Source: Verrucomicrobiales bacterium (GTDB lineage: Bacteria > Verrucomicrobiota > Verrucomicrobiia > Methylacidiphilales > JAAUTS01). From it: a stretch of DNA of 38,229 bases. Position 1 is the first letter of the stretch. Every line of letters starts with the position of its first letter. The stretch covers positions 1-38,229 of the forward strand of contig JAISCS010000172.1 of NCBI GenBank assembly GCA_031265365.1. The letters run 5' to 3'. A program made the position numbers and the translations under genes. The notes under the pieces were generated by a model that did not search any database, had not been told where the DNA came from, and saw nothing but the letters and a program-made list of their open reading frames with translations. This document shows, in pieces, positions 2,672 through 25,412 of this stretch.

Positions 2672-3919
2672 TTACGCTTGGCCTTGCAGGTTGCTGATGA
2701 TGCTGATAAGCGGCATGAACAGCGCGATGACAATCGTGCCGACAATCACCGCGAGGAACACGATCATTATCGGCTCCAGCAGCGAGGTCAGGCCGGATAC
2801 CGCTGTGTCCACTTCTTCCTCGTACACGTCGGCCACTTTGGTGAGCATCGCGGGTAGCTGGCCGGTCTCCTCGCCGACTTGAATCATGCTGATAACCATG
2901 GGCGGGAACAGGCCGCTGTGTTCCATCGGGCCGACCATGGATTCGCCTTCCTTGACGCTTTCGTAGATGTTGCCGATGGCGTTGGCGATGACGAGGTTGC
3001 CGGAGGTTTCCTTGGTGATGTTCAGCGCTTGCAAAATCGGCACGCCGCTGGAGACGAGGGTGCCCAGGGTGCGGGAGAAGCGGGCGATGGAGGTTTTGCT
3101 GACGAGGTCGCCGAACAGGGGGAATTTCAGTTTGATGCGGTCAATCATGACCGAGCCGCCGGGGGTTTTGGCGAAAATCTTGTAGGCGACAATCAGTACC
3201 ACGACGCCGCCGACGATCCAGAGAATGTTGTCTTGCACGAAGCGGCTGGCGTCAATGACCATTTGCGTGATGAATGGCAGCGGTTTGCCGCCGAGCATGT
3301 CCTTGAAAATCGCCTCGAACTTCGGGACGATGAACAGCAGCAGGAAGGCCAGGATGCCGATGGCGATGACCAGCACCACCACCGGGTAAACCATGGCGGC
3401 GAGGACTTTGCCGCGTATCTTCTGCGATTTTTCCTGAAACTCGGCGAGGCGCACGAGGACGATTTCCAGCACGCCGCCGACTTCGCCCGCCTTGACCATG
3501 TTGACGTAGAGTTTGTTGAAGATGCTGGAGTGCTGGGCCAGGGCGTCGGAGAAGGTGCTGCCGCTCTCGACCGAGTCGGAGAGTGAGGTCATGGCGTTTT
3601 TCAGCGCGGGGTTTCGCTCTTGCTTGACCAGTGTGACCAGACTGCGGAGCAGCGGCATACCGGCGTCAATCAGCGTGGCCAACTGGCGCGTGAAGACCAT
3701 CAGCACCTTGCCCTTGACCTTGGGCTTGCCGAAGGAGAAGGACCTTTTGGCGGTTTTGTTGGCAATCGCCGCCGTGGAGGTGTTGACTTCCACGACCGTG
3801 ACAGGGAACAACCCCTGCTGCTTGATTTTGGCCGTGGCGTCGGCCGTGTTGGTGGCGTCTATGTTGCCAGTTTTTTGCTGCCCGGTGGCATCAACCGCGG
3901 TATAGTTAAATGTAGCCAT
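2672..3919 (-). CDS. pilC: Type IV pilus inner-membrane platform protein PilC / GspF family
   Basis: A 415-residue polytopic inner-membrane protein, the platform on which the PilB ATPase acts to insert pilins. The N-terminus has the usual short beta segment (FNYTAVDATGQQKTGNIDA), followed by two repeated GspF domains. The first contains FTRQLATLIDAGMPLLRSL and the second FSRTLGTLVSSGVPILQAL, each followed by the signature segment (GEVGGVLEIVLVRLAEF; GEETGQLPAMLTKVADVYEEEV). Hydrophobic helices lie at about residues 168-195 and 215-240 and near the C-terminus (PIMIVFLAVIVGTIVIALFM). It is downstream of two PilB-type ATPases with a 6-base gap, which indicates one transcription unit. It ends at the bidirectional terminator at 2619-2652. 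No pilin, prepilin peptidase or PilT is in the window, so pilus versus type II secretion cannot be told for certain. Confidence 0.93.
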   Translation of the reverse strand: MATFNYTAVDATGQQKTGNIDATNTADATAKIKQQGLFPVTVVEVNTSTAAIANKTAKRSFSFGKPKVKGKVLMVFTRQLATLIDAGMPLLRSLVTLVKQERNPALKNAMTSLSDSVESGSTFSDALAQHSSIFNKLYVNMVKAGEVGGVLEIVLVRLAEFQEKSQKIRGKVLAAMVYPVVVLVIAIGILAFLLLFIVPKFEAIFKDMLGGKPLPFITQMVIDASRFVQDNILWIVGGVVVLIVAYKIFAKTPGGSVMIDRIKLKFPLFGDLVSKTSIARFSRTLGTLVSSGVPILQALNITKETSGNLVIANAIGNIYESVKEGESMVGPMEHSGLFPPMVISMIQVGEETGQLPAMLTKVADVYEEEVDTAVSGLTSLLEPIMIVFLAVIVGTIVIALFMPLISIISNLQGQA

Positions 3920-3925
3920 AGTTTT

Positions 3926-5599
3926 TTACGTGTATTTTAACACTTCCTCAATTGTGGTTTCTCCGTCAAAAATGCAGCGCAGGCCGTCCTGTCGCAACGT
4001 GGTCATGCCCAGCTCGATGGCTTTTTGCCGGATGACCACGGTGGGGGCCTTCGCGGTAATAAGCTGGCGGATTGGCTCCTTGATGTCGAGCAATTCGTAA
4101 ATGCCCTTCCGTCCCTTGTAACCGGTTTGGTTGCAGTAGTCGCAGCCGCCGCCGTAGTAGAACGATTTGTCGCCCACGTCATGCGCGGTCAAGCCGATTT
4201 GCGCCAGCACGCTCTCGGTCGGTTCGTAAGGGGTTTTGCACTTGGAGCAGATGCGGCGAATCAAGCGCTGGCCGAGCACGCCTTCCAGCGTGGCGGCGAT
4301 GAGGAACGGCTCGACGCCCATGTCAATCAACCGCGTCACCGCGCCGGGCGCGTCGTTGGTGTGCAGGCTGGTCAGCACCAAGTGGCCGGTCAGCGAGGAT
4401 TGAATGGCGATTTGCGCGGTCTCCAAGTCGCGCGTCTCGCCGACGAGGATGCGGTCGGGGTCCTGGCGCAGGAAGGCGCGCAGCGCGCGGGCGAAGGTCA
4501 GCCCGATGGCCTCGTGCACCTGCACTTGCTGGATGCCCTCAAGCTCGTATTCGACCGGGTCCTCGGCGGTCAGGATTTTCGTGTCCAGCGTGTTGATTTT
4601 CTTGATGCAGGAATACAGCGTGGTCGTCTTGCCGCTGCCGGTGGGGCCGGTGACGATGAAAATGCCGTGCGGCTTGTTGATGGTGTCAACAACGTAGTTC
4701 AACAGATACTCCGGCATCCCCAGCGACTCAAGGTCGAGGTTGATGACGCTGCGGTCGAGCACGCGGAGCACCACGCTTTCGCCGTGCTGCGTCGGCAGCG
4801 TGGAGACGCGGAGGTCAACCTGCCGGCCCGCCATGCTGGTCTGGATGCGCCCGTCCTGCGGGATGCGGCGCTCGGCGATGTTCAGGCCCGACATGACCTT
4901 GATGCGCGAGATGACCGGCAGCGCCAGTCGTTTCGGCGGCGGGGCCATTTCGTAGAGCGCGCCGTCCACCCGGTAGCGAATCTTAAACTCCTTTTCAAAC
5001 GGCTCGAAGTGAATATCGCTCGCCTGTGCCTGGATGGCCTTGGCGATGATGGTGTTGACGAACTTGATGATGGGCGCGCTGCTGGCGGCGCTCTGGTCGT
5101 CGAGGCTGGTCTCGGAAACTTTTTGCGCCTCGCCCGCCAATTGCGACAGCAACTCGTCCATCGAGTCTTGGTCGGAGCCGTAGTATTGCGAGAGCAGCGC
5201 GTCAATTTGCGCGATGGGGGCGACGACCACTTGAATATCGCGGTTAATCGCCCAGCGCAAATCATCCAGCGATTGCGAGTCCAGCGGGTCCTTCAACGCC
5301 ACCGTGACGTTCTGCTTGCTGAAGGCCACCGGCAGCGCCCCGTGGATGCGCGCGGTCTGCGGCGGGATGATGCTCAGCAACTCCGGCGTGAACACCGCCT
5401 CGGACAAATCCACCATCTGCAAGCCGAGGCTGTTGGCAATCAGCTCCAGCAACTTGTCCTCGGCGATGATGCCGAAGTTGGCGATGATTTGCTCGATGGG
5501 TTTCCCCATGCGCTCGGCTTCCTCAATCAAATCGCTGACTTGCTCGTGGTTGACGTAACCTTGCTCGGTCAAAAAGGAGAGAAGGAAATGGGGGTTCAT
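3926..5599 (-). CDS. pilB: Type IV pilus assembly ATPase PilB / GspE family (proximal to pilC)
   Basis: A 557-residue cytoplasmic hexameric ATPase expected to power pilin polymerisation. The N-terminal MshEN/GspE-N domain (GYVNHEQVSDLIEEAERMGK, then FGIIAEDKLLELIANSLGL) is followed by the N2 domain (SDIHFEPFEKEFKIRYRVDG) and the ATPase core: Walker A GPTGSGKTTT near residue 318, Asp box ILTAEDPVEYE, Walker B RAFLRQDPDRILVGETRD, His box TGHLVLTSLHTNDAP. Two zinc-binding Cys pairs (CSKC and, about 30 residues on, CDYC) are typical of PilB/GspE and absent from PilT. It starts 3 bases after the second ATPase and ends 6 bases before pilC. Of the two ATPases this is the closer homologue by position. 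Confidence 0.93.
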   Translation of the reverse strand: MNPHFLLSFLTEQGYVNHEQVSDLIEEAERMGKPIEQIIANFGIIAEDKLLELIANSLGLQMVDLSEAVFTPELLSIIPPQTARIHGALPVAFSKQNVTVALKDPLDSQSLDDLRWAINRDIQVVVAPIAQIDALLSQYYGSDQDSMDELLSQLAGEAQKVSETSLDDQSAASSAPIIKFVNTIIAKAIQAQASDIHFEPFEKEFKIRYRVDGALYEMAPPPKRLALPVISRIKVMSGLNIAERRIPQDGRIQTSMAGRQVDLRVSTLPTQHGESVVLRVLDRSVINLDLESLGMPEYLLNYVVDTINKPHGIFIVTGPTGSGKTTTLYSCIKKINTLDTKILTAEDPVEYELEGIQQVQVHEAIGLTFARALRAFLRQDPDRILVGETRDLETAQIAIQSSLTGHLVLTSLHTNDAPGAVTRLIDMGVEPFLIAATLEGVLGQRLIRRICSKCKTPYEPTESVLAQIGLTAHDVGDKSFYYGGGCDYCNQTGYKGRKGIYELLDIKEPIRQLITAKAPTVVIRQKAIELGMTTLRQDGLRCIFDGETTIEEVLKYT

Positions 5600-5602
5600 G
5601 GC

Positions 5603-7315
5603 TTAATCCTTGTCTCCGGTGGTGGCGGAAATGACTTCCTCCGGGGTGGTGAAACCGGCGACGACCTTGCGGATGCCGTCCTCGCGCAAGGTCCTCATGC
5701 CGAGGTCGCGCGCCCGCTGGCGGATGGCGCTGATGCCGGCTTGGTCGTTAATCAGCGTCCGCAACTCGTCGTCCACGACGAAAATCTCAAAGATGCCGCT
5801 GCGCCCCTTGTAACCGGAACCGCGGCAGGTGTCGCACCCGTGGCCGTGCTTGAAGCTGGCCTCGGTGATTTGCGTGGCGTTCAAGTTCAGCGCCCGCAAT
5901 TCCACATCACTCGGCGTGTACGGTTGCGCGCACTTCGCGCACACTTTGCGAATCAAGCGTTGCGCCATGACCGCGCGGATGGATGACGACACGAGGAACG
6001 GTTTCACGCCAATGTCCGTCAAGCGGGTGACCGCCGTCGGCGCGTCGTTGGTGTGCAGCGTGCTGAACACCAAGTGCCCCGTCAGCGACGCGTTGATGGC
6101 GATGTTGGCTGTCTCTTCGTCACGAATTTCCCCGACCATGATGATGTTCGGCGCCTGCCGCAACATCGCCCGCAATGCCGCCGCGAAGGTCATGCCGGCG
6201 TCCTCGTTCACCTGCACTTGGTTCATGCCGGGCACTTCGTATTCCACCGGGTCCTCCACGGTGATAAGTTTGCGGTCGGGCTTGTTCAGCGTGTTCAAGC
6301 AAGCGTAGAGCGTCGTGGATTTGCCGCTGCCCGTCGGCCCCGTCACCAGGAAAATCCCGTCCGGCAGGCCGAGGATGCGCTCCATCGTCGCCTGGTCGTC
6401 AGCGAAGAAACCGAGCTGCGGCAAGCCGAGTTGCAAGCCGGTCTTGTCCAAAATACGCATGACGATGGACTCCCCGTGCACCGTCGGCACCGTGGACACG
6501 CGCAAGTCCACCGAACTGCCGTCTTGCAGCGCAATCGAGATACGCCCGTCCTGCGGCAGCCGCTTTTCCGCGATGCTGATGTTCGCCATGATTTTTACCC
6601 GGCTCAATATCGTTGACTGCAACCGCTTGGGCGGGTCCCGCATCTCCTGCAACACGCCGTCCATGCGATACCGCAGCCGGAAACGCTTTTCCAGCGGCTC
6701 CATGTGAATGTCCGACGCCTTCAGCCGGTACGCGTCCATGATGATGCCGTACACCATCTTGATAATCGGCGCGTCACCCTCGCCACCTTCCTTCTCCTCG
6801 TCAGTGGATTCGCCGGTGTTTTCCTTCACCTCCAGCCCGAAGTCGTCGCCATAGGTGCTCATCAACGTGCTGACGCTCTCCTCCAGTTCCCCGTAATAGC
6901 GCGTGATGGTCTTGTAAATCTCCGCCTGCGGCACGATGACCGCCTCAACGTCAGTGCCCAGCAAATGTTGCAGCGAATCCAGCGTGCTGAAGTCCAGCGG
7001 GTCGCTAATCGCCACGCGCACCACGCGCCCCTGCTTGGACAGCGGCATGATGTGGTAACGTTTCACCTGCTCCTTGGTCAGCAGCGCCACGGCGTCCTCG
7101 TCCACATGCTCGATGGTCGGCAAAAACTCCGTGCCGGTCTCGTTGGCCATCGTCTGCAAAATTTCCTCGATGGTGATGCGCCCGCCCTGCACCAGAATGT
7201 CAGCGACCGCGGTGCCCTTCTGGCCGGCGACGGCCTTGGCGTCGGTCGCCTCGTCGCGCGAAATCATTCCGGTGTTCACCAGAAGTTCCAACACATAATC
7301 GTCATTAACCGCCAT
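5603..7315 (-). CDS. Second PilB/GspE-type secretion ATPase
   Basis: A 570-residue paralogue of the neighbouring PilB, with the same architecture: N-terminal MshEN-like domain (GMISRDEATDAKAVAGQKG, MANETGTEFLPTIEHVDE), an acidic linker unlike the partner's (ESTDEEKEGGEGDAP), N2 domain (ASDIHMEPLEKRFRLRYRMD), Walker A GPTGSGKSTT near residue 328, Asp box ITVEDPVEYE, Walker B NIIMVGEIRDEE, His box TGHLVFSTLHTNDAP and two zinc Cys pairs (CAKC, CDTC). All catalytic elements appear intact, so it is not a decayed duplicate. It is the first gene of the ATPase-ATPase-pilC unit. Whether the two form mixed hexamers or serve distinct fibres cannot be read from sequence. Confidence 0.9.
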   Translation of the reverse strand: MAVNDDYVLELLVNTGMISRDEATDAKAVAGQKGTAVADILVQGGRITIEEILQTMANETGTEFLPTIEHVDEDAVALLTKEQVKRYHIMPLSKQGRVVRVAISDPLDFSTLDSLQHLLGTDVEAVIVPQAEIYKTITRYYGELEESVSTLMSTYGDDFGLEVKENTGESTDEEKEGGEGDAPIIKMVYGIIMDAYRLKASDIHMEPLEKRFRLRYRMDGVLQEMRDPPKRLQSTILSRVKIMANISIAEKRLPQDGRISIALQDGSSVDLRVSTVPTVHGESIVMRILDKTGLQLGLPQLGFFADDQATMERILGLPDGIFLVTGPTGSGKSTTLYACLNTLNKPDRKLITVEDPVEYEVPGMNQVQVNEDAGMTFAAALRAMLRQAPNIIMVGEIRDEETANIAINASLTGHLVFSTLHTNDAPTAVTRLTDIGVKPFLVSSSIRAVMAQRLIRKVCAKCAQPYTPSDVELRALNLNATQITEASFKHGHGCDTCRGSGYKGRSGIFEIFVVDDELRTLINDQAGISAIRQRARDLGMRTLREDGIRKVVAGFTTPEEVISATTGDKD

Positions 7316-7363
7316 AAAGAGTACCTAGGTTAAAAAATCATTCCGCTGTTGCCAAGTAGATAA

Positions 7364-8818
<1,455 letters not shown>

Positions 8819-14197: not shown

Positions 14198-14267
14198 AAA
14201 TAAATCGGCGCACTACCCGCGCGAACATCAAATTGACTTCACGCCGCGTCTCTGCATAATCAGTTCC

Positions 14268-14525
14268 ATGCCCCCCCGCCACACCAGAAAAAAAGTCACC
14301 GGCAGCGCCCCGCGCCGCGCGCGGACGGGGAATCGCGCGCCGCTGGTGGTGGCGGCGCTGGTGGTGCTCGCGTTGCTGGCGGCGGCGGGGTTTTATCTAT
14401 ATCAACAGGAGCGGGACAAGCACGACAGCATCGCCGCGAAGGCGCGGCAAATCGCCGAGGAAAACCCCAACGCCGAGGTGTTTTCCGGCGATGTCAATCC
14501 CGACGCTGATGTAAAAAAAAAGTAA
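14268..14525 (+). CDS. Single-pass membrane N-terminal module, 0-frame product of a probable frameshifted L,D-transpeptidase gene
   Basis: An 85-residue product. It has a basic N-terminus (MPPRHTRKKVTGSAPRRART), one transmembrane helix at about residues 24-45 (APLVVAALVVLALLAAAGFY), then a charged stretch ending DVNPDADVKKK. The stop TAA at 523-525 follows an A9 run. Reading one base back at that run continues without a stop into a Pro/Ala-rich linker and the L,D-transpeptidase domains, which otherwise have no start codon with plausible context and no export signal. The likely full product (14268-15571, about 434 residues) is therefore an inner-membrane-anchored periplasmic enzyme. The alternatives are a homopolymer sequencing error (A10 would be in frame) or two separate genes. 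The short form may be a real product if the shift is programmed. Confidence 0.75.
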   Translation: MPPRHTRKKVTGSAPRRARTGNRAPLVVAALVVLALLAAAGFYLYQQERDKHDSIAAKARQIAEENPNAEVFSGDVNPDADVKKK

Positions 14526-14546
14526 CGGCGCAATTACCCGCGCCGT
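14513..14546 (+). promoter_or_regulatory. Candidate -1 frameshift site: A9G slippery run, stop codon, hairpin
   Basis: Nine A (14513-14521) then G. In the 0 frame the codons are GTA AAA AAA AAG TAA, so the heptamer A_AAA_AAG (14516-14522) is in exactly the register used at E. coli dnaX. After a -1 slip the next codon is GTA at 14522. A 7-bp GC-rich hairpin (ACGGCGC 14525-14531, GCGCCGT 14540-14546, loop AATTACCC) starts 2 bases after the heptamer, which is closer than the usual 5-9. The A9 run is also long enough for transcriptional slippage. Confidence 0.6.
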
Positions 14547-14596
14547 CCAACTCCGAACGTAGCGAAGCCAAAGTAACGGCGTCACCGCCAGCGCCT

Positions 14597-15571
14597 TTGC
14601 CCAAGGCGGAGCCACCGTCAGCGCCCAAAACTCCTGAACCACCGCAGCCGGTCAAACCAGCCGAACCGTCACCGTCAGTAGTGGAAGCCAAGCGCCCCGC
14701 GCTTACCGTCGCGCCCGCGCCGGTGACGAAAATGGATTACGCCGTCTGGCAGGTGCGGATGGAACGGTTGAATTTTTCCTGCGGCACCATTGACGGCGAC
14801 TTCGGCATGAGAAGCAAGCGGGCCATCACCCAGTTCCAGAAAAGCCGGGGGCTGTTCGTTACCGGCACGCTGGATATTGAAACCCGCTTGGCGCTCGGCG
14901 CGCCAGAACAGCCGTTCACCCTGTATACTGTCAGCGCCAGGGACCTCGCGCAAATCAACCCGTCGCCCGCCGCGTGGCGCGACAAGGCGCGGGCGTCTTT
15001 TCTCGGTTATAAAAACGGTTGGGAAATGCTCGCCGACAAATTTCACACCAGCGAGGAATTCATGCGGCAACTCAACCCCGGTGTCACCGCGCTGCCGGCG
15101 GGCGCCATCGTCACCGTGCCGAATCTCGAACCCGCCGCGCCCGTCACCCGCGCGGGCAAAATCGTCATCATCCTCGGCGAGACGACCATGCTGCTGTATG
15201 ACCGCGCCGGCAAGTTGCAAGCCTGTTTCCCGTGTTCCATCGCCGCCGACAAAAACAAACGGCCCAACGGCCGGCTCACGGTCACCAACAGCGCGCTGAA
15301 TCCGAACTACACCTTCAACCCGGAGGTTTTCCAGGAAGCCGCCGCCCGCGAGGGCATCACCTCGCGGCTGCTCATCCCGCCGGGGCCTAACAACCCGGTG
15401 GGCCTCGCGTGGGTGAGCCTGTCGTTGCCCGGCTACGGCATCCACGGCACGCCCAACCCGCGCGAGATTTCCCGCAGCGGCTCGCACGGCTGTTTCCGGC
15501 TGGCGAACTGGGACGCGCTGAAGGTGTATCACGCCGTCGTCCGGGGCACGCCCGTGGAAATAGTGGATTGA
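14597..15571 (+). CDS. L,D-transpeptidase (YkuD) with peptidoglycan-binding and LysM-like domains; -1-frame part of the split gene
   Basis: A periplasmic peptidoglycan cross-linking enzyme. The listed start is a TTG with no support; the frame is open back through 14522, and translation most likely enters by frameshift from the membrane module upstream. Order: Pro-rich linker (PKAEPPSAPKTPEPPQPVKP); PG_binding_1 domain (WQVRMERLNFSCGTIDGDFG, MRSKRAITQFQKSRGL); LysM-like segment (NGWEMLADKFHTSEEFMRQL, LPAGAIVTVPN); YkuD catalytic domain beginning IVIILGETTMLLYDRAGKLQ. The active-site signature is HGTPNPREISRSGSHGCFRL, with Cys as nucleophile and both His residues present. It ends opposite a convergent lytic transglycosylase gene, so a cross-link maker and a cutter of peptidoglycan are neighbours. 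Domain calls are strong; the start is not. Confidence 0.85.
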   Translation: MPKAEPPSAPKTPEPPQPVKPAEPSPSVVEAKRPALTVAPAPVTKMDYAVWQVRMERLNFSCGTIDGDFGMRSKRAITQFQKSRGLFVTGTLDIETRLALGAPEQPFTLYTVSARDLAQINPSPAAWRDKARASFLGYKNGWEMLADKFHTSEEFMRQLNPGVTALPAGAIVTVPNLEPAAPVTRAGKIVIILGETTMLLYDRAGKLQACFPCSIAADKNKRPNGRLTVTNSALNPNYTFNPEVFQEAAAREGITSRLLIPPGPNNPVGLAWVSLSLPGYGIHGTPNPREISRSGSHGCFRLANWDALKVYHAVVRGTPVEIVD

Positions 15572-15575
15572 ATAT

Positions 15576-15655
15576 GATGTTCGCGCGGAGCCACGGAGAC
15601 GCGGAGTTTTTTTATTTTAATTAACTCTGCGTCTCAGCGGCTCTGCGCGAACATC
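15576..15655. repeat. Inverted repeat of CGCGGAGACGC type between convergent genes
   Basis: Arms 15576-15606 and 15625-15655 pair at 27 of 31 positions around an 18-base A/T loop with a T run. It sits between the convergent 3' ends of the transpeptidase and transglycosylase genes and could act as a terminator. The left arm closely matches 10599-10627. Confidence 0.8.
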
Positions 15656-15672
15656 AAATCCCCGTCAGCCTT

Positions 15673-16341
15673 TTAGGAATCCGGTCGCGTCGCGAGCAGT
15701 TTCTTCGACTGTTGCCGCAAGCGCCAGAGGTGGACGGCGAGTTCGTTGCGGACGGCGCGCCAAGGGGTCAGTTGGCGCGTGCTGGTTTTGTAGTTGTCCC
15801 GTTTTTCCAAAATATCCCGCGCGTACGCCTTGGTCGTCGGATAATCAATGTTGGCGATGAACGGCGCGGCTTCCCAGCGCGGCAGCGGTTGCGCCCAGCG
15901 GCGGGCGTGGGTGCGGCCCGCGTTGTACTCGGCAAGGGCGAACGCCTCCGGCAGGTCGGCGTCGCGCCAGCGGCCGATGGCGCGGGCGAGGTACCAACTG
16001 CCCGCCATGATGTTGGTGCGCGGGTCGAACAAATCGGTCTCGCGGAAGGTGGTGATTTTTTCCGCCTTCGCCCATTCCTTGCCGGCGTTGGGGGTGACTT
16101 GCATCAGGCCGCGCTCTTGCGCCGCGCCGAAGACGTCGGGCTGGAAAGCGCTCTCGCGCCAAATCACCGCGCGGATGAGATGCGGGTCGAGGCGGTAACG
16201 CCGGGCGGCTTCGGCGATGAGCGGCTCGTAGATTTGGCTTTGCTTGACCAGCCGCGCGCCCCGCCAATACAGCGCGCCGGCGACCGCTGACAGTGAGAAG
16301 GCGGCGATGAGCAGGAGTTTGGGCCAGTGGTTAAGTCGCAT
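15673..16341 (-). CDS. Soluble-lytic-transglycosylase (SLT) domain protein
   Basis: A 222-residue membrane-anchored or exported lytic transglycosylase that would cleave the MurNAc-GlcNAc bond of peptidoglycan to form 1,6-anhydro ends. An N-terminal hydrophobic helix (LLLIAAFSLSAVAGALYW, residues 9-26) serves as signal or anchor. The SLT domain follows: YRLDPHLIRAVIWRESAF with the catalytic Glu at residue 63, the GLMQVTPNAGKEW motif, NIMAGSWYLARAIGRW, and the FALAEYNAGRTHARRW segment. The C-terminal part is basic. It is compact for the family, comprising little more than the catalytic domain. The gene is convergent with the L,D-transpeptidase and upstream of a large palindrome that separates it from the divergent priA. 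Confidence 0.92.
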   Translation of the reverse strand: MRLNHWPKLLLIAAFSLSAVAGALYWRGARLVKQSQIYEPLIAEAARRYRLDPHLIRAVIWRESAFQPDVFGAAQERGLMQVTPNAGKEWAKAEKITTFRETDLFDPRTNIMAGSWYLARAIGRWRDADLPEAFALAEYNAGRTHARRWAQPLPRWEAAPFIANIDYPTTKAYARDILEKRDNYKTSTRQLTPWRAVRNELAVHLWRLRQQSKKLLATRPDS

Positions 16342-19409: not shown

Positions 19410-22400
19410 ATGAAATATTACTCCTATCTGATTGGCGGCGCGCTGGTGTTCGCCGCTGTTTTATTGCAACCTGCCGCGCCCTGCGCCGCCGCCGATGTTT
19501 ACTGGGGCGAAAGTGCTGCCGGCATGTGGACGACCGGCTCGTGGCGGGTGCAAGACCCAAGCGGCACCTGGCGCTTCAACCCACAGCCGACAGGCACGGA
19601 CAACGCCATCGTGCAGAACGCGCCCGACCCGTCCACCGTCGGCTCTGTCACCGTCAGCGCCGGCACCAGCGGCATCGCGCGAGATGTCATTATCGGCAAA
19701 GCCAACCTCGGCTTCCTGACGATTGAGGGGGTGTTGAGCAACACCAACGCCATCATCGGCGAAATCGTCGGCGCGGCGGGCAGCGGCGTCACCGTCAGCG
19801 GCACCGGCTTTTGGCGCAACAGTGGCACGCTAACCGTGGGACGCGACGGCTCGCTGACTTCCACGTTGGCCATCCTCAACACCGGCAGCGTCAGCGCGGT
19901 GACCAGCATCGTCGGCGAAATCATGAACAGCAACGGCGTGGTCACCATCGGCGGCACTGGCCTCTTCAACGCGGGCGTGCTGACGGTGGGACAATCGGGC
20001 AATGGCGGCGTCACGGTCAGCGGCAACGGCACGGTGGTCAGCGCGAACGCCACGCTCGGCAACGCGACGGGCGCGAGCGGTGCGGTCAGCGTCGGCGACA
20101 GCGGCGTGTGGCGCACGGGCAATTTCATCATCGGCAACAGCGGCGCGGGCGTGTTCACGCTGACGGACAACGCCAGCGGCACCAGCACGGGCGCGACTAT
20201 CGGCGCGAACGCCGGCTCGACCGGCGACGCCACCGTCAGCGACGGCGCGCGCTGGCTCAACAACGGCGCGCTGACCGTGGGCGTGGCGGGCGTCGGCACG
20301 CTGACGGTGAGCGACCACGCCACCGGCACCAACAGCGGCGCGCTGACCGTCGGGCAGAGCGGCACCGGCACGCTAACGTTGACTGACAGCGCAACCTTCA
20401 CCAACGGCGCCGCCGTCATCGGCGCGAACGCCAACAGCCTCGGCACCGTCAACATCAGCGGCTCGGTCGCATGGACGAACAACGGCGCGCTGACCGTGGG
20501 GCAGAGCGGCACCGGTGTCGTCACCATCACTGGCAGCAACATTGTCACCACCAGCGGCAATCTCACCGTCGGGCAGAGCGGCGCGGGCGCGCTCACCGTC
20601 AGCGGCGAAAATATTTTGACTAACAACAATCTCATAGTCGGCCAAAACGGTTCCGGCGTCGGCGAAATCACCATCGGTGGCACCGCGACTTGGACGAACA
20701 GCGGCAGCGTCACCGTCGGTCAGAGTGGCACCGGCACGGTCAAGCTCAGCGAAAACATTACTGTCACCAGCACCGGCGCGGCGGTGGTTGGTGCGAATGA
20801 CAACAGTTTCGGCGCCATCACCATCGGCGACAATGCGACTTGGGCGAACGCCGGCAATTTTACCGTCGGGCAAAGCGGTGCCGGCACGCTGACACTGAGC
20901 GGCAACGCCGTGGTCAGCAATAGCGCGGCGATTATCGGCGACACGGCCGGCGGCGTCGGCACCGTCAGCGTTGACGGCAACGCGCAATGGCGCAACAGCG
21001 GCACGTTCAAGGTCGGCAACAGCGGCACCGGCAAACTCACCATCAGCGGCAACGCGTTTGTGGAAACGCGGGACGCCGACATCGGTTACGACAAGAATGC
21101 GAATGGCGTCGGCACCGTCAGCGGCAGCGCGTTTTGGCAAATCAAGACCGACCCCGCCGCCGGTTACGAGGGCGCGTTGTTCATCGGCCACGGCACCACC
21201 GCGACCGACGCGCCCGCCGGCACGCTGAACATCACCGAGAGCGGCAGTGTCAGCGCCGGCCACAGCTACGTCGGCTACAATGCCAGCGGCGCGGTCAACG
21301 TCAGTGGCTCCGGTTTTTGGAACAGCGGCGATTTGTATCTCGGCGCGCACGGCGACGGCGCGCTGAACATCACCGACAGCGGCAGCGTCACCAGTGGCGT
21401 CGCCGCCATCAGTGACGCGCACGTCGGCGCGAACGGCACCGTCAGCATCGATGGCAACGGCCTGTGGCTTGTCACCGGCGGCACCCTGCAGAACAACGAC
21501 GGTGGCCACCTCGTGCTCGCCGACAGCGGCAGCGTCATCGTCAGTGGCACTTACACGCAAAGCGCGAGCGCGTTGCTGACGTTCACCCTCAGCGACACCA
21601 GCGCGAAAATCGTCGCCGACGGTGCCACCGTCAGCGGCACGCTGACCATCGCCGGCTTCACCGGCACGCTGGCGGACACGGCGAGCCTCGTGCAAAGCAC
21701 GACTTACACGCTCATCCACACCGCCGGGCCGGGCAACCTCAGCGGGCGTTTTGACGAGGTGAATTTCAGCGAGGGGTTTTTCGACGACATCCCCGATTAC
21801 ATCACCTCGCTCGGCGCCTACGTGGACAGCGGGACGCGGAATTATATGTCCGGCTTCAAATTGAGCTGGGACGCCGCCACCGTGGAAATCTCCGCCACGC
21901 GCGCGCACGGTGACTTCACCGTCGCTGACGATGTCTCCTTCGACGTGGACGTGCCGCTCAACGATGTGGCGGAAAATCCCGACAAAAATTGGGATGGCAA
22001 ATCGCTGACCAAGAACGGCCCGGGCACGCTGACGCTGAGCGCATCGAACAATTTTTCCGGCACCACCACGGTCAACGCGGGCTTGCTCAACATCAGCGGC
22101 TGGACGGGCAGCAACGCGGCGGGGGTCATTGACAGCGGCACCGTCAACGTCAGCGGCGCGTGGCTGGTGAGTGAGGATATTACTGTCACCAACGGCGCGT
22201 TGCTCGTGAGCGGCGGCACGGTGAGCGGCGGTACCGCGCTGAACGTGACCGATGGCGAGTTGACCGTCACCGGCGGCTTGCTGGACAGCCTCGCGGCGGT
22301 CGTGGACAACAGCGTCGCCACCGTCAGCGGCGGCACGTGGAACAGTGCGACACTGGATTTCACCGGCACCCTCGATGTCAGCGGCAGCGGCTTGGTCAAC

Positions 22401-25400
22401 AGTGACACGCTGGCGGTGAACGCCGGTAGCGTGATAATCATCGCCGAGAGCGGCACAATGACGAATGCGGCGGCGAAGGTGAACGCGCGCGAAGTCATCG
22501 TCAGCGGTGGCGTGTGGAACAGTGCGACGCTGGGTTTCACCGGCATCCTCAATGTCACCGGCAGCGGCTTGTTAGATACCGGCACACTGACGGTGAACGC
22601 GGGTAGTGTAGTGACCGTCGCGGAAAGCGGTACGGTGAAGAGCGTTGAGGCGGATGTGAACGCGCGTGAAGTTAGCGTCAGCGGGCAGGGTTATTTGGAA
22701 GCGTCACAGCTTGCGGTGAGCGACAGCCTGAGCATCACCGGCAGTGGCGTGGTCAAGAGCGAAACGGCGGACGCGCGCGTGACCAGCGTCAGCGGGAGTG
22801 GTTACTTGGAAGCGTCGCAGCTCACGGTAAGCGACAACCTGAGTGTGACCGGCAGCGGCGTGGTCAAAAGCGAAGCGGCAGACGTGCGCGTGGTCAGCGT
22901 CAGCGAACGCGGATATTTGGAAGCGGCGCGGCTCACGGTGAGCGACAGCCTGAGCCTCACGGACAGCGGCACGGTGATGAGCGAGGCGGCGAATGCGAGC
23001 ATGGTCAATGTCAACGGGAGCGGATATTTGAAAGCGTCGCAGCTCACGGTAAGCGACAGTCTGAGTGTAACCGGCAGCGGCGTGGTCAACAGCGGTGAGT
23101 TGACCACGGCAGTCGGCGGCGTGGTGACCGTCACAGACAGCGGCATAGTGACGAGCAAAACGGTGGACGCGAGCGTGGTCAGGGTTAGCGGGAGCGGTTA
23201 CTTGGAAGTCTTTCAGTTCAAGGTGAACGACAGCCTGAGCGTCACCGGTAGTGGCGTGGTCAACAGTGTTAAGTTGACCACGGCAGCTAACAGCGTGGTG
23301 GCCGTCACGGACAGCGGCGTAGTGATGAGCGAAGAGGCGAATGCGAGCGTGGTCAATGTCAACGGGAGCGGATACTTGAAAGCGTCACAGCTTACGGTGA
23401 CCGACAGCCTGAGCGTGACCGGCAGCGGCGTGGTCAACAGCGGTGGGTTAACCGCGGCAGCCGGCAGCGTGGTGACCGTCGCGGACAGCGGCACGGTGAC
23501 GAGCGAAGCGGCGGTTGCGAGCGTGGTCAACGTCAGTGGGCGCGGATACTTGGAAGCGGCGCGGCTCACGGTGAGCGACACCCTGAGCGTCACTGGCAAT
23601 GGCGTGGTCAAGGGCGACACGCTGACGATGAACACGGCGAAACTTTTGCTCGCGGGCGGCGCGGTGTTGCGCGCTGACGAGACGGTCGTCAACGGCGGCA
23701 CCGTCGCCATCGTCAGCAAGGACGTGCGCTTGCAAAACACCGCCGGCGCCGGACGGCTCACCATCAGCGGCTACGGCGCGACGGTGTTGCTCGACCACCG
23801 CGGCGATTTTACTTTCGACAGCAAGGTTGTCGGCAACACGAATATCAAACTCGTCAGCGGCATCACGACGTTCGCGGCGACGGACAGCACGCACAGCGGC
23901 ACCGTCAGTGTCAGCGCCGGCGCGCTGCTGCGGGCGGGCAGCGCGAATGTGATTTCACAAAACGCCGATGTGTCGCTCGCCGGTGGTGGCGCGTTTGACT
24001 TGAACAATTTTTCGCAACGGTTCCGCAATCTCAACGTCAGTGGCGGCGGCATTGATTTCGGCGGCACCGGCGGGGCGCTGGCGGTGAGCCGGTTGGACGG
24101 CGATGGCACATGGCATTTTTACGCTGACACCGGCAGCGGCGCGCGCAACACCGTCAGCGTCAGCGCCGCCAGCAGCGGGCGCGAGCGCGTGATTTTGAAT
24201 TTATCCGGCAACGAGACGGCCGACCCGCGCGCGGTGTTGGCCGGCATGATTGACGACCCGTATCAGGCGGTGTGGCAGTTTGACGATTTTCATTGGGGCC
24301 TGTTTGATTACAGCGCGGCGCAAACCGCCAACACGCTGACGCTGACCCAACACACCACGTCGGCCAGCGCGGGCATCGGCAGCATCGCGGAGGTGCAGCG
24401 GCGCGCGTGGTTCACGCAACAAAGTTCGCTGGTGAAGCGCATGGGCGATTTGCGGTTGAAAATCGCGCGCGAGCGGCTGGCCGCTGACGATGACGTGGTG
24501 ATGAAAAATTTGAACGCGCAGATTGACCAAATGTTCGCCGACCTCGGCGTGCCGCTGCCGCCGAGGCAGCAGGAGACGCCCGCGACGGTCGCGGAGACGG
24601 CGCGGTCATTTGTCGAGAATGTGTGGATGCGCGGCTTCGGCGCGCAGCAGAATGTCCGCGCCAGCGTCAGCGGCATGGCGTTTGACGAGACGGTTTACGG
24701 CTTCGATGTCGGCGCCGACCACGCGTGGAATATTGGCGCTGACGATGTGTTAGTCACCGGACTGTTCCTCGGTTACAATGGCGGCAGCGCGGATTTCAAA
24801 GGCGCGGGCGTGAAGACGGATTTGCACGGTTACCACGGCGGCCTGTATTTAAGCTGGCTGACGGACAACGGTTGGTACGTGGACGCGGTGGCGAAGGGCG
24901 CGGTCACCAACAGCGACCTCAGCGCGCCGCTGATCGGGCGCGCCACGAGCGTGGACGCTGACGGTGCCGGCGTTGGCGCGAGCGTGGAATTTGGCAAGCG
25001 GTTCGACTTCACCGGCGGCTGGTTTGTCGAGCCACAGGCGCAAATCGCCGCGCTGCACTTGATGACCGACGATTTCACTTTCGGCAGCCTCAACATCAAG
25101 GCCAAAGACCTCGACGCCGTGCAACTGCGCGCCGGCGTCACGGGCGGGCGCACCTTCGCGCTCAACGGCGGGCGCATGGTGCAAGTATACGGCAGAGTGG
25201 CCGGCGTGGAAGAACTCAGCAGCGGCGGTGAATTTCGCAGCGGCGCGCAAAAAGTGCGCGCTGACAGTGACGGCGCGCGCGCCGAGTTAGGCGGCGGCTT
25301 GATTTACCAAATAGACGCGCACAACCAGTTGCACCTCGACTACGAGGCTGGCTTCGGCGCGGGCTATACCTCCCCGTGGGGCCTTAACGGCGGGTATCGG

Positions 25401-25412
25401 TATCAGTTCTGA
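19410..25412 (+). CDS. Giant autotransporter (type V secretion) with repetitive beta-helix passenger
   Basis: A 2000-residue protein. Residues 1 to about 28 form a signal peptide (YLIGGALVFAAVLLQPAAPC, cut near AAA). The passenger has two repeat types. Residues about 150-720 carry short G/T/S-rich units around ALTVGQSGTGTLTLT and VIGANANSLGTVNIS. Residues 1095-1416 carry 37- and 58-residue units starting YLEASQLTVSDSLSVTGSGV. Between them is an autotransporter-associated strand repeat (GTLTLSASNNFSGTTTVNAG). From about residue 1725 comes the outer-membrane beta-barrel (VENVWMRGFGAQQNVRASV, YGFDVGADHAWNIGADDVL), ending in the aromatic C-terminal strand GGYRYQF that BamA recognises. Passengers of this kind are parallel beta-helices; adhesion is a reasonable guess, no more. 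Its own promoter is at 19359-19388. Cysteine is nearly absent, as expected for such proteins. Confidence 0.93.
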   Translation: MKYYSYLIGGALVFAAVLLQPAAPCAAADVYWGESAAGMWTTGSWRVQDPSGTWRFNPQPTGTDNAIVQNAPDPSTVGSVTVSAGTSGIARDVIIGKANLGFLTIEGVLSNTNAIIGEIVGAAGSGVTVSGTGFWRNSGTLTVGRDGSLTSTLAILNTGSVSAVTSIVGEIMNSNGVVTIGGTGLFNAGVLTVGQSGNGGVTVSGNGTVVSANATLGNATGASGAVSVGDSGVWRTGNFIIGNSGAGVFTLTDNASGTSTGATIGANAGSTGDATVSDGARWLNNGALTVGVAGVGTLTVSDHATGTNSGALTVGQSGTGTLTLTDSATFTNGAAVIGANANSLGTVNISGSVAWTNNGALTVGQSGTGVVTITGSNIVTTSGNLTVGQSGAGALTVSGENILTNNNLIVGQNGSGVGEITIGGTATWTNSGSVTVGQSGTGTVKLSENITVTSTGAAVVGANDNSFGAITIGDNATWANAGNFTVGQSGAGTLTLSGNAVVSNSAAIIGDTAGGVGTVSVDGNAQWRNSGTFKVGNSGTGKLTISGNAFVETRDADIGYDKNANGVGTVSGSAFWQIKTDPAAGYEGALFIGHGTTATDAPAGTLNITESGSVSAGHSYVGYNASGAVNVSGSGFWNSGDLYLGAHGDGALNITDSGSVTSGVAAISDAHVGANGTVSIDGNGLWLVTGGTLQNNDGGHLVLADSGSVIVSGTYTQSASALLTFTLSDTSAKIVADGATVSGTLTIAGFTGTLADTASLVQSTTYTLIHTAGPGNLSGRFDEVNFSEGFFDDIPDYITSLGAYVDSGTRNYMSGFKLSWDAATVEISATRAHGDFTVADDVSFDVDVPLNDVAENPDKNWDGKSLTKNGPGTLTLSASNNFSGTTTVNAGLLNISGWTGSNAAGVIDSGTVNVSGAWLVSEDITVTNGALLVSGGTVSGGTALNVTDGELTVTGGLLDSLAAVVDNSVATVSGGTWNSATLDFTGTLDVSGSGLVNSDTLAVNAGSVIIIAESGTMTNAAAKVNAREVIVSGGVWNSATLGFTGILNVTGSGLLDTGTLTVNAGSVVTVAESGTVKSVEADVNAREVSVSGQGYLEASQLAVSDSLSITGSGVVKSETADARVTSVSGSGYLEASQLTVSDNLSVTGSGVVKSEAADVRVVSVSERGYLEAARLTVSDSLSLTDSGTVMSEAANASMVNVNGSGYLKASQLTVSDSLSVTGSGVVNSGELTTAVGGVVTVTDSGIVTSKTVDASVVRVSGSGYLEVFQFKVNDSLSVTGSGVVNSVKLTTAANSVVAVTDSGVVMSEEANASVVNVNGSGYLKASQLTVTDSLSVTGSGVVNSGGLTAAAGSVVTVADSGTVTSEAAVASVVNVSGRGYLEAARLTVSDTLSVTGNGVVKGDTLTMNTAKLLLAGGAVLRADETVVNGGTVAIVSKDVRLQNTAGAGRLTISGYGATVLLDHRGDFTFDSKVVGNTNIKLVSGITTFAATDSTHSGTVSVSAGALLRAGSANVISQNADVSLAGGGAFDLNNFSQRFRNLNVSGGGIDFGGTGGALAVSRLDGDGTWHFYADTGSGARNTVSVSAASSGRERVILNLSGNETADPRAVLAGMIDDPYQAVWQFDDFHWGLFDYSAAQTANTLTLTQHTTSASAGIGSIAEVQRRAWFTQQSSLVKRMGDLRLKIARERLAADDDVVMKNLNAQIDQMFADLGVPLPPRQQETPATVAETARSFVENVWMRGFGAQQNVRASVSGMAFDETVYGFDVGADHAWNIGADDVLVTGLFLGYNGGSADFKGAGVKTDLHGYHGGLYLSWLTDNGWYVDAVAKGAVTNSDLSAPLIGRATSVDADGAGVGASVEFGKRFDFTGGWFVEPQAQIAALHLMTDDFTFGSLNIKAKDLDAVQLRAGVTGGRTFALNGGRMVQVYGRVAGVEELSSGGEFRSGAQKVRADSDGARAELGGGLIYQIDAHNQLHLDYEAGFGAGYTSPWGLNGGYRYQF
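19980..21060 (+). repeat. Degenerate short repeats in the first passenger region
   Basis: Repeated units coding for TVGQSGTG-, VIGANANS- and TW(T/R)N(N/S)G-type segments, each an expected beta-helix coil. Copies are diverged, with a coil roughly every 20-25 residues and a longer period of about two coils. The boundaries are approximate. Confidence 0.7.
22692..23655 (+). repeat. Long near-identical coding repeats (37- and 58-residue units)
   Basis: Seven starts of YLEASQL-type units: three 37-residue units from 22692, then three 58-residue units, then a partial one at 23547. Neighbouring copies share long identical stretches at the DNA level, for example TGAGCGTGACCGGCAGCGGC-type segments. 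That indicates recent tandem duplication or gene conversion. The long units equal a short unit plus a 21-residue insert (around TVTDSG). Confidence 0.8.

Follow-up and report, generated by a model that had tools for sequence, protein, structure and literature searches.

Probable programmed frame change at a conserved A run between a small membrane module and an L,D-transpeptidase in the Methylacidiphilales

Results

The locus in the window

The window, which is the whole 38,229-nucleotide stretch of DNA analysed, contains two overlapping reading frames on its forward strand that meet at a run of nine A (Table 1). The 0-frame product, read from the ATG at 14268, begins with MPPRHTRKK, continues through the transmembrane segment to ENPNAEVFSGDVNPDADVKKK and ends in DADVKKK. 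Its last codons are GTA (14511) AAA AAA AAG TAA. This confirms the earlier note, which had read the end of a membrane module here, with A_AAA_AAG in the 0 frame and an immediate stop. No Pfam family matches the 85-aa part above the cut-off, and the Pfam and NCBIfam matches far under it (PrgH and an anti-sigma factor) were discarded. In an alignment of 23 members, P, A, E and K are invariant in the module. Judging from the sequence, the product would span the inner membrane once, with the enzyme part of the longer product in the periplasm.

From the A run to its own stop at 15571, the -1 frame (KKKVTAQ...) reads without interruption. ORF reading and the Pfam matches bear out the Pro-rich linker, the PG-binding domain and the intact YkuD site first described in this frame. 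The catalytic motif SHGCFRL is intact, with its Cys codon at 15491-15493, and the active-site H and C of the YkuD motif are invariant in the 10 members compared. As both the domain and the H...SHGC motif are present, the trans-frame part is a predicted YkuD L,D-transpeptidase. The LysM-like region of the earlier note stands as a fold and not as a Pfam family, as it has no Pfam call in any of 10 members but models well in a structure of the conserved enzyme part built from ten relatives (mean pLDDT 92). The nearest solved structure is the Acinetobacter baumannii L,D-transpeptidase 8da2 (profile E 2e-65, 274 positions aligned; Foldseek fold match of the model, E 5e-22). The whole three-part chain of PG-binding, LysM-like and YkuD parts aligns with this structure.

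In the -1 frame, no start codon comes before a TTG at 14597. In the frameshifted relatives, the -1 part is generally without a strong hydrophobic segment (best 19-residue hydropathy mean mostly <1.1), compared with best means of about 1.2-3.0 in the in-frame relatives. The claim that the downstream part lacks a credible start or export signal of its own is upheld by this late TTG and by the absence of an export-type hydrophobic segment. Alternatively, the transpeptidase could be made as its own cistron, from an internal start used by re-initiation or coupling after the 0-frame stop. That stop lies inside the overlap, and TTG and other possible starts lie downstream, as such a cistron would have. 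Against this, the open stretch of the -1 frame already begins at the run, the -1 part has no export signal although its substrate is periplasmic, and the A run would need no keeping. A separate cistron is very unlikely.

The short sequence GCGCGAACATCAAAT occurs three times in the window (14219-14233, 15572-15586 and 15645-15659), a count reached in 0/100 shuffles, and flanks the gene on both sides. It looks like an intergenic repeat family. The convergent neighbour of the transpeptidase gene is a lytic transglycosylase (SLT) gene on the minus strand (15673-16341), which encodes another peptidoglycan enzyme. A 2000-aa autotransporter with a passenger repeat is located at 19410-25412.

Table 1. 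Features of the locus and its neighbourhood in the window
Feature	Position	Strand	Remarks
0-frame ORF, 85-aa membrane module	14268..14525	+	K/R-rich N-terminus, one TM segment, P-x-A-E-V-F motif, KKK, stop
Predicted transmembrane segment APLVVAALVVLALLAAAGFYLY	14337..14402	+	Hydropathy 2.71
Juxtamembrane motif PNAEVF, conserved	14466..14483	+	P, A and E invariant (alignment, 23 members)
Putative slippage site, nine A (T A9 G)	14513..14521	+	Contains 0-frame A_AAA_AAG
0-frame stop TAA	14523..14525	+	Right after AAG codon
7-bp hairpin, stem ACGGCGC/GCGCCGT, 8-nt loop	14525-14531/14540-14546	+	
-1 frame continuation (trans-frame part): Pro-rich linker, PG-binding domain, LysM-like region, L,D-transpeptidase	14513..15571	+	
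PG_binding_1 domain	14750..14896	+	Pfam PF01471, E 5e-8
YkuD L,D-transpeptidase domain	15161..15562	+	Pfam PF03734, E 1e-16, above cut-off
GatB, two T2SSE ATPases, T2SSF	2672..8818	-	Same contig, about 5-11 kb from the gene; context, not part of the gene

Distribution among related genomes

The -1 protein was searched against 142 related genomes, and the DNA upstream of each match was read. The same layout is present in 33 genomes of the order. In these relatives, a basic N-terminus, one transmembrane segment and P-x-A-E-V-F or a close variant lie in frame 0, KKK (or KKN) on the A run and a stop come next, and the -1 frame then encodes the transpeptidase. Four further genomes of the order (G005, G016, G057 and G060) have the same run and module, for a total of 37 genomes and at least as many species. 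In three of these four, the enzyme is on another contig, which begins just past the run and is presumably continuous with that of the module. Two genomes of f21, in a neighbouring order of the same class, are also frameshifted, which brings the number to 39. Within the order, the frame break is found in six families, which are most of its families. It is carried by the cultured rice-root strain Verrucomicrobia bacterium LW23 (L171) and by G012, a genome assembled as a single contig. LW23 and the genus JABDGH01 have been placed in the GTDB order Methylacidiphilales (PMC8706344). The window's order is taken to be this one, as the searches for related genomes group these genomes with it. In family f9, genus g13 has a plain fused ORF without the A run.

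The break could be a sequencing or assembly error, or the gene a recent pseudogene. The window assembly consists of 213 contigs and is 77.6% complete, and the named records are mostly metagenome assemblies, in which single homopolymer lengths can be wrong, though hardly in 39 concordant cases. The break is shared by 38 further genomes, in independent assemblies from several families that include cultured LW23 and the one-contig genome, and both frames are under purifying selection (see below). Error or decay was therefore rejected as a general explanation, its probability being negligible. Error or decay may account for one unrelated locus, a Pedosphaera-type L,D-transpeptidase (L186) whose -1 break falls at A8, about 64 nt upstream of the matched domain. 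It was not counted as a conserved slippage site, as the close relative L188 is in frame and the 0-frame stop is about 100 nt off; it is probably an error or a fresh mutation, and possibly a fresh, independent slippage site. At L231 (G005:C117), the reading frame of the transpeptidase breaks a second time within the domain, probably through an assembly error or decay in G005.

The window genome contains about 34 separate runs of nine or more A, only one of which was found at such a frame break. The others are mostly intergenic or at gene ends, and a few are in frame inside genes. A9 is in frame in four ordinary genes (G000 contigs C79, C119/C120, C161 and C187; loci L116, L120, L131 and L139), named by eye as a glycosyltransferase, a LOG-like protein, an efflux adaptor and a long coiled-coil protein. 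A suspected second slippage gene in this genome, L128, turned out to have a normal gene start.

Length and register of the A run

The slippery site proposed for the window is conserved in its relatives. The run is A9 or A10 in 39/39 genomes, never interrupted and never shorter than nine, and the shift is -1 (an extra A) at all 39 sites and +1 at none. The run occurs in several registers. It is A9 as GTA or ACA AAA AAA AAG in genera g1 and g3 and family f7 (one f7 genome reads GCG GTA AAA AAA AAG), and as GAT or CCT AAA AAA AAA in f3 and LW23. It is A10 as GAA or CAA AAA AAA AAG or AAC in f5, f6, f9g11, f1g2 and f21g28, and as CCA AAA AAA AAA in f21g39. The earlier note would have been refuted by relatives in which ten A give a single ORF; this is not the case, as the A10 relatives use another register and their frame is still broken. 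No in-frame A10 version was found in the groups that have the run, though one would be a single replication slip from the A9 genes, and the broken frame is therefore kept by selection. In all frameshifted loci except the double-run locus L048, the 0-frame stop is 0-24 nt from the run; at L048, the slip run also has an immediate stop after it.

The heptamer A_AAA_AAG or A_AAA_AAA (AAC in two) is in the 0 frame at every site; it is unavoidable in any A9. Where only eight A come from the Lys codons, an A precedes them in every lineage concerned. These preceding Val, Glu, Gln or Thr codons end in A in only 6-62% of their codon family in the same genes, and AAA makes up 0-72% of the other Lys codons in these genes. 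The product of the A-ending shares over nine lineages, including the Pro site of f21g39, is about 10^-6.5, a rough, after-the-fact value that is indicative only because the species are related.

In f3, a +1-frame stop also lies directly after the run in many genomes. The Asp codon before the A9 (e.g., L011:1484-1486, L016, L019 and L030) is GAT in 16/16 f3 genomes, compared with about half for the other invariant Asp codons. This GAT puts a -1-frame TAA directly at the run and is, as far as is obvious, required by neither slippage model.

Downstream structure and upstream signals

The earlier note had proposed a ribosomal shift of the dnaX type, aided by a 7-bp GC hairpin. The hairpin is present in the window and a comparable one occurs in 4/5 members of the window's genus; it is absent in most other families. 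In the window, it begins 2 nt after the AAG of the heptamer, and its fold energy is unexceptional against shuffles (z -1.4). Over 35 sites, the downstream folds have a mean z of -0.39, with z < -2 in 3/35, and several f3 sites have no downstream structure (0.0 kcal/mol). These near-chance folds rule out downstream RNA structure as a general stimulator. No consistent upstream Shine-Dalgarno sequence was found among the sites compared.

These results bear on programmed -1 ribosomal frameshifting on A_AAA_AAG or A_AAA_AAA, as in Escherichia coli dnaX, with two products from one mRNA. The in-register heptamer at every site, the direction conserved in 39/39 and the hairpin in the window's genus favour this explanation. 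In most lineages other than f3, the slip codon also has a stop right behind it, as would suit a ribosomal slip. Neither the hairpin nor a Shine-Dalgarno sequence is conserved, however, the f3 sites often have 0.0 kcal/mol and the spacing in the window is only 2 nt. The heptamer needs six A plus G, yet no lineage keeps fewer than nine A. The dnaX-type mechanism with its hairpin is not supported by these data, and ribosomal frameshifting is rather unlikely to be the explanation.

Selection and history

Purifying selection acts on both frames. The pN/pS of the module is 0.26-0.55 in four groups and that of the -1 ORF is 0.17-0.41, which is <0.6 in both parts. In a quick tree of the enzyme domain (83 rows), the frameshifted state needs four changes, compared with a shuffled mean of about 26. 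The in-frame genera f9g13 and f2g4 are nested among frameshifted families. The frameshifted state is therefore probably old, with losses.

The run could also mark a contingency (phase-variable) locus, at which replication changes the run length and cells have either the module only or the full enzyme. Replication slips readily on A9 runs (PMC1088944). A mixture of states is expected at a phase-variable site, whereas 39/39 genomes are in the same off-frame state and neither an in-frame A10 nor an A8 occurs in the run-bearing groups. Phase variation is highly improbable here.

Stand-alone modules and their neighbourhood

A module profile was made from the 23-member alignment and used to look for further copies. 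Besides the frameshifted genes, it finds stand-alone modules in f2g4 and f24g33. The f2g4 module has 82 aa (E about 1e-8), ends in RENPDAEVFEVKSEKAEK followed by the stop, and is without an A9 run at its end. The transpeptidase of f2g4 is a separate, in-frame gene on another contig. The f24g33 modules have about 95 aa and no transpeptidase downstream. Two of them (L243 and L244, both on the complement strand) are ~95-aa membrane proteins with an ENPxAEVL motif, and the neighbour of the stand-alone module at L243/L248 is polynucleotide phosphorylase. The small membrane proteins with P-x-A-E-V-F form a new family, the window's member of which is without a library match above the cut-off.

The f2g4 module lies directly after a T2SSE-T2SSE-T2SSF set, with no more than about 100 nt between it and the T2SSF stop. 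The corresponding T2SSF gene of f7 (G012) ends about 35 nt before the start of the frameshifted gene. The f2g4 stand-alone module and the f7 frameshifted gene look like positional orthologues. The frameshifted gene of f9g11 is also near this cluster, from which a single 714-aa ORF separates it. The pair of T2SSE ATPases stays with T2SSF in several families (the window, L247, L249 and L250), and GatB joins this set in the window and in f2g4.

Because the module stands alone in two other lineages, the short product is probably a protein with its own role. The strongest available argument that both products matter comes from f2g4, with its two genes, one for each predicted product. The neighbourhood suggests a possible tie of the module to a pilus or secretion platform. 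It is distinctly unlikely, though worth stating, that the module belongs with the T2SSE/T2SSE/T2SSF platform (type IV pilus or type II secretion) and that the frame change puts an L,D-transpeptidase on a share of its copies, which would bring cross-linking there at a set ratio.

Discussion

Conservation in six families supports the central claim of the earlier note, a programmed frame change with two products, the membrane protein by itself and a membrane-anchored L,D-transpeptidase. In the proposed reading, the locus is one gene whose frame change is programmed and conserved. Frame 0 would give a single-pass inner-membrane protein of ~70-130 residues that ends just after the A9/A10 run. Part of the time, expression would in effect include one more A, most likely added to the mRNA by RNA polymerase as it slips on the nine A. 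Such a message, translated normally, would then give the module, the Pro-rich linker and the PG-binding, LysM-like and YkuD L,D-transpeptidase parts. This long product would be anchored in the inner membrane with its enzyme part on the periplasmic side. Both products would be wanted and made in a set ratio, which may tune cross-linking, as the earlier note suggested. As a whole, this proposal is fairly likely.

Transcriptional and ribosomal slippage can both act on one site. We infer that slippage occurs at the run, and the evidence favours, without proving, RNA polymerase over the ribosome as roughly twice as probable an agent. Transcriptional slippage is preferred mainly because the extra A is kept, which a plain A_AAA_AAG heptamer would not need. 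It is also favoured because the run occurs in several registers, the preceding A is kept and the hairpin and Shine-Dalgarno sequence are absent in most relatives. Efficient slippage of bacterial RNA polymerase is classically tied to nine A (PMC1088944, PMC5009743), and the sites have the about nine or more sense-strand A, in whatever register, that poly-A realignment takes. The dnaX gene of Thermus has nearby stops in both non-productive frames (PMC5009743). The +1-frame stops of f3 resemble these and fit a process that yields transcripts of several lengths.

Some observations do not favour this proposal. Genus f9g13 does without the run, and the in-frame A9 in four ordinary genes shows that A9 alone is tolerated. 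Antonov et al. take an unvarying direction among orthologues to point to ribosomal and not transcriptional shifting (PMC3711429). The sites here are all -1; as variable direction is a permissive criterion (PMC3711429), this makes membership in the transcriptional class less probable without excluding it.

The closest known system is tssM of Citrobacter rodentium, in which transcriptional frameshifting occurs on A11 and both lengths and their ratio are needed (PMC4256274). In tssM of C. rodentium and of the Yersinia pseudotuberculosis T6SS-3, as here, the short form of an envelope protein ends after the A run and slippage adds a C-terminal domain (PMC4256274). The tssM genes belong to another protein family, and their frameshifting was shown by experiment and reported for two genes; the arrangement described here is order-wide and known from sequence. 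The added part is an enzyme here, unlike in tssM.

The dnaX genes offer further likenesses. The A9 of Thermus thermophilus dnaX is a run of the A9/A10 type, with two products that share a common N-terminus (PMC5009743). In the two-ORF dnaX of Chlorobi (A7-A10, mostly A10), a -1 break lies between the ORFs and transcriptional realignment has been proposed (PMC3711429, PMC5009743). Both encode a DNA polymerase subunit and neither a membrane nor a cell-wall protein, and the unslipped product of Thermus dnaX is the long one. The dnaX of E. coli, with its Shine-Dalgarno sequence and hairpin, has the same A_AAA_AAG in the same register as the window. In contrast to it, the sites described here have no Shine-Dalgarno sequence, their hairpin is not conserved, at least nine A are kept and not the heptamer alone, and the shift gives the long and not the short product. 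The enzyme itself resembles A. baumannii 8da2 (YkuD-type) in its PG-binding, middle and YkuD regions; it differs in that it would be translated only after the frame change and is carried on a separate membrane module.

To our knowledge, few chromosomal genes outside mobile elements use programmed frame changes. No peptidoglycan enzyme made by a frame change, L,D-transpeptidase or other, turned up in a literature search that did not cover the pilot survey of Sharma et al. 2011. Across an order, gene callers would miss or mis-start the transpeptidase. The in-frame A9 genes of the window genome are a natural test of how much transcriptional slippage the organism tolerates. A natural control is also at hand, as the products are two genes in one genus and a plain in-frame gene is present in another lineage. 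As LW23 is cultured, the question of why an L,D-transpeptidase would be made in two forms at a set ratio is directly testable.
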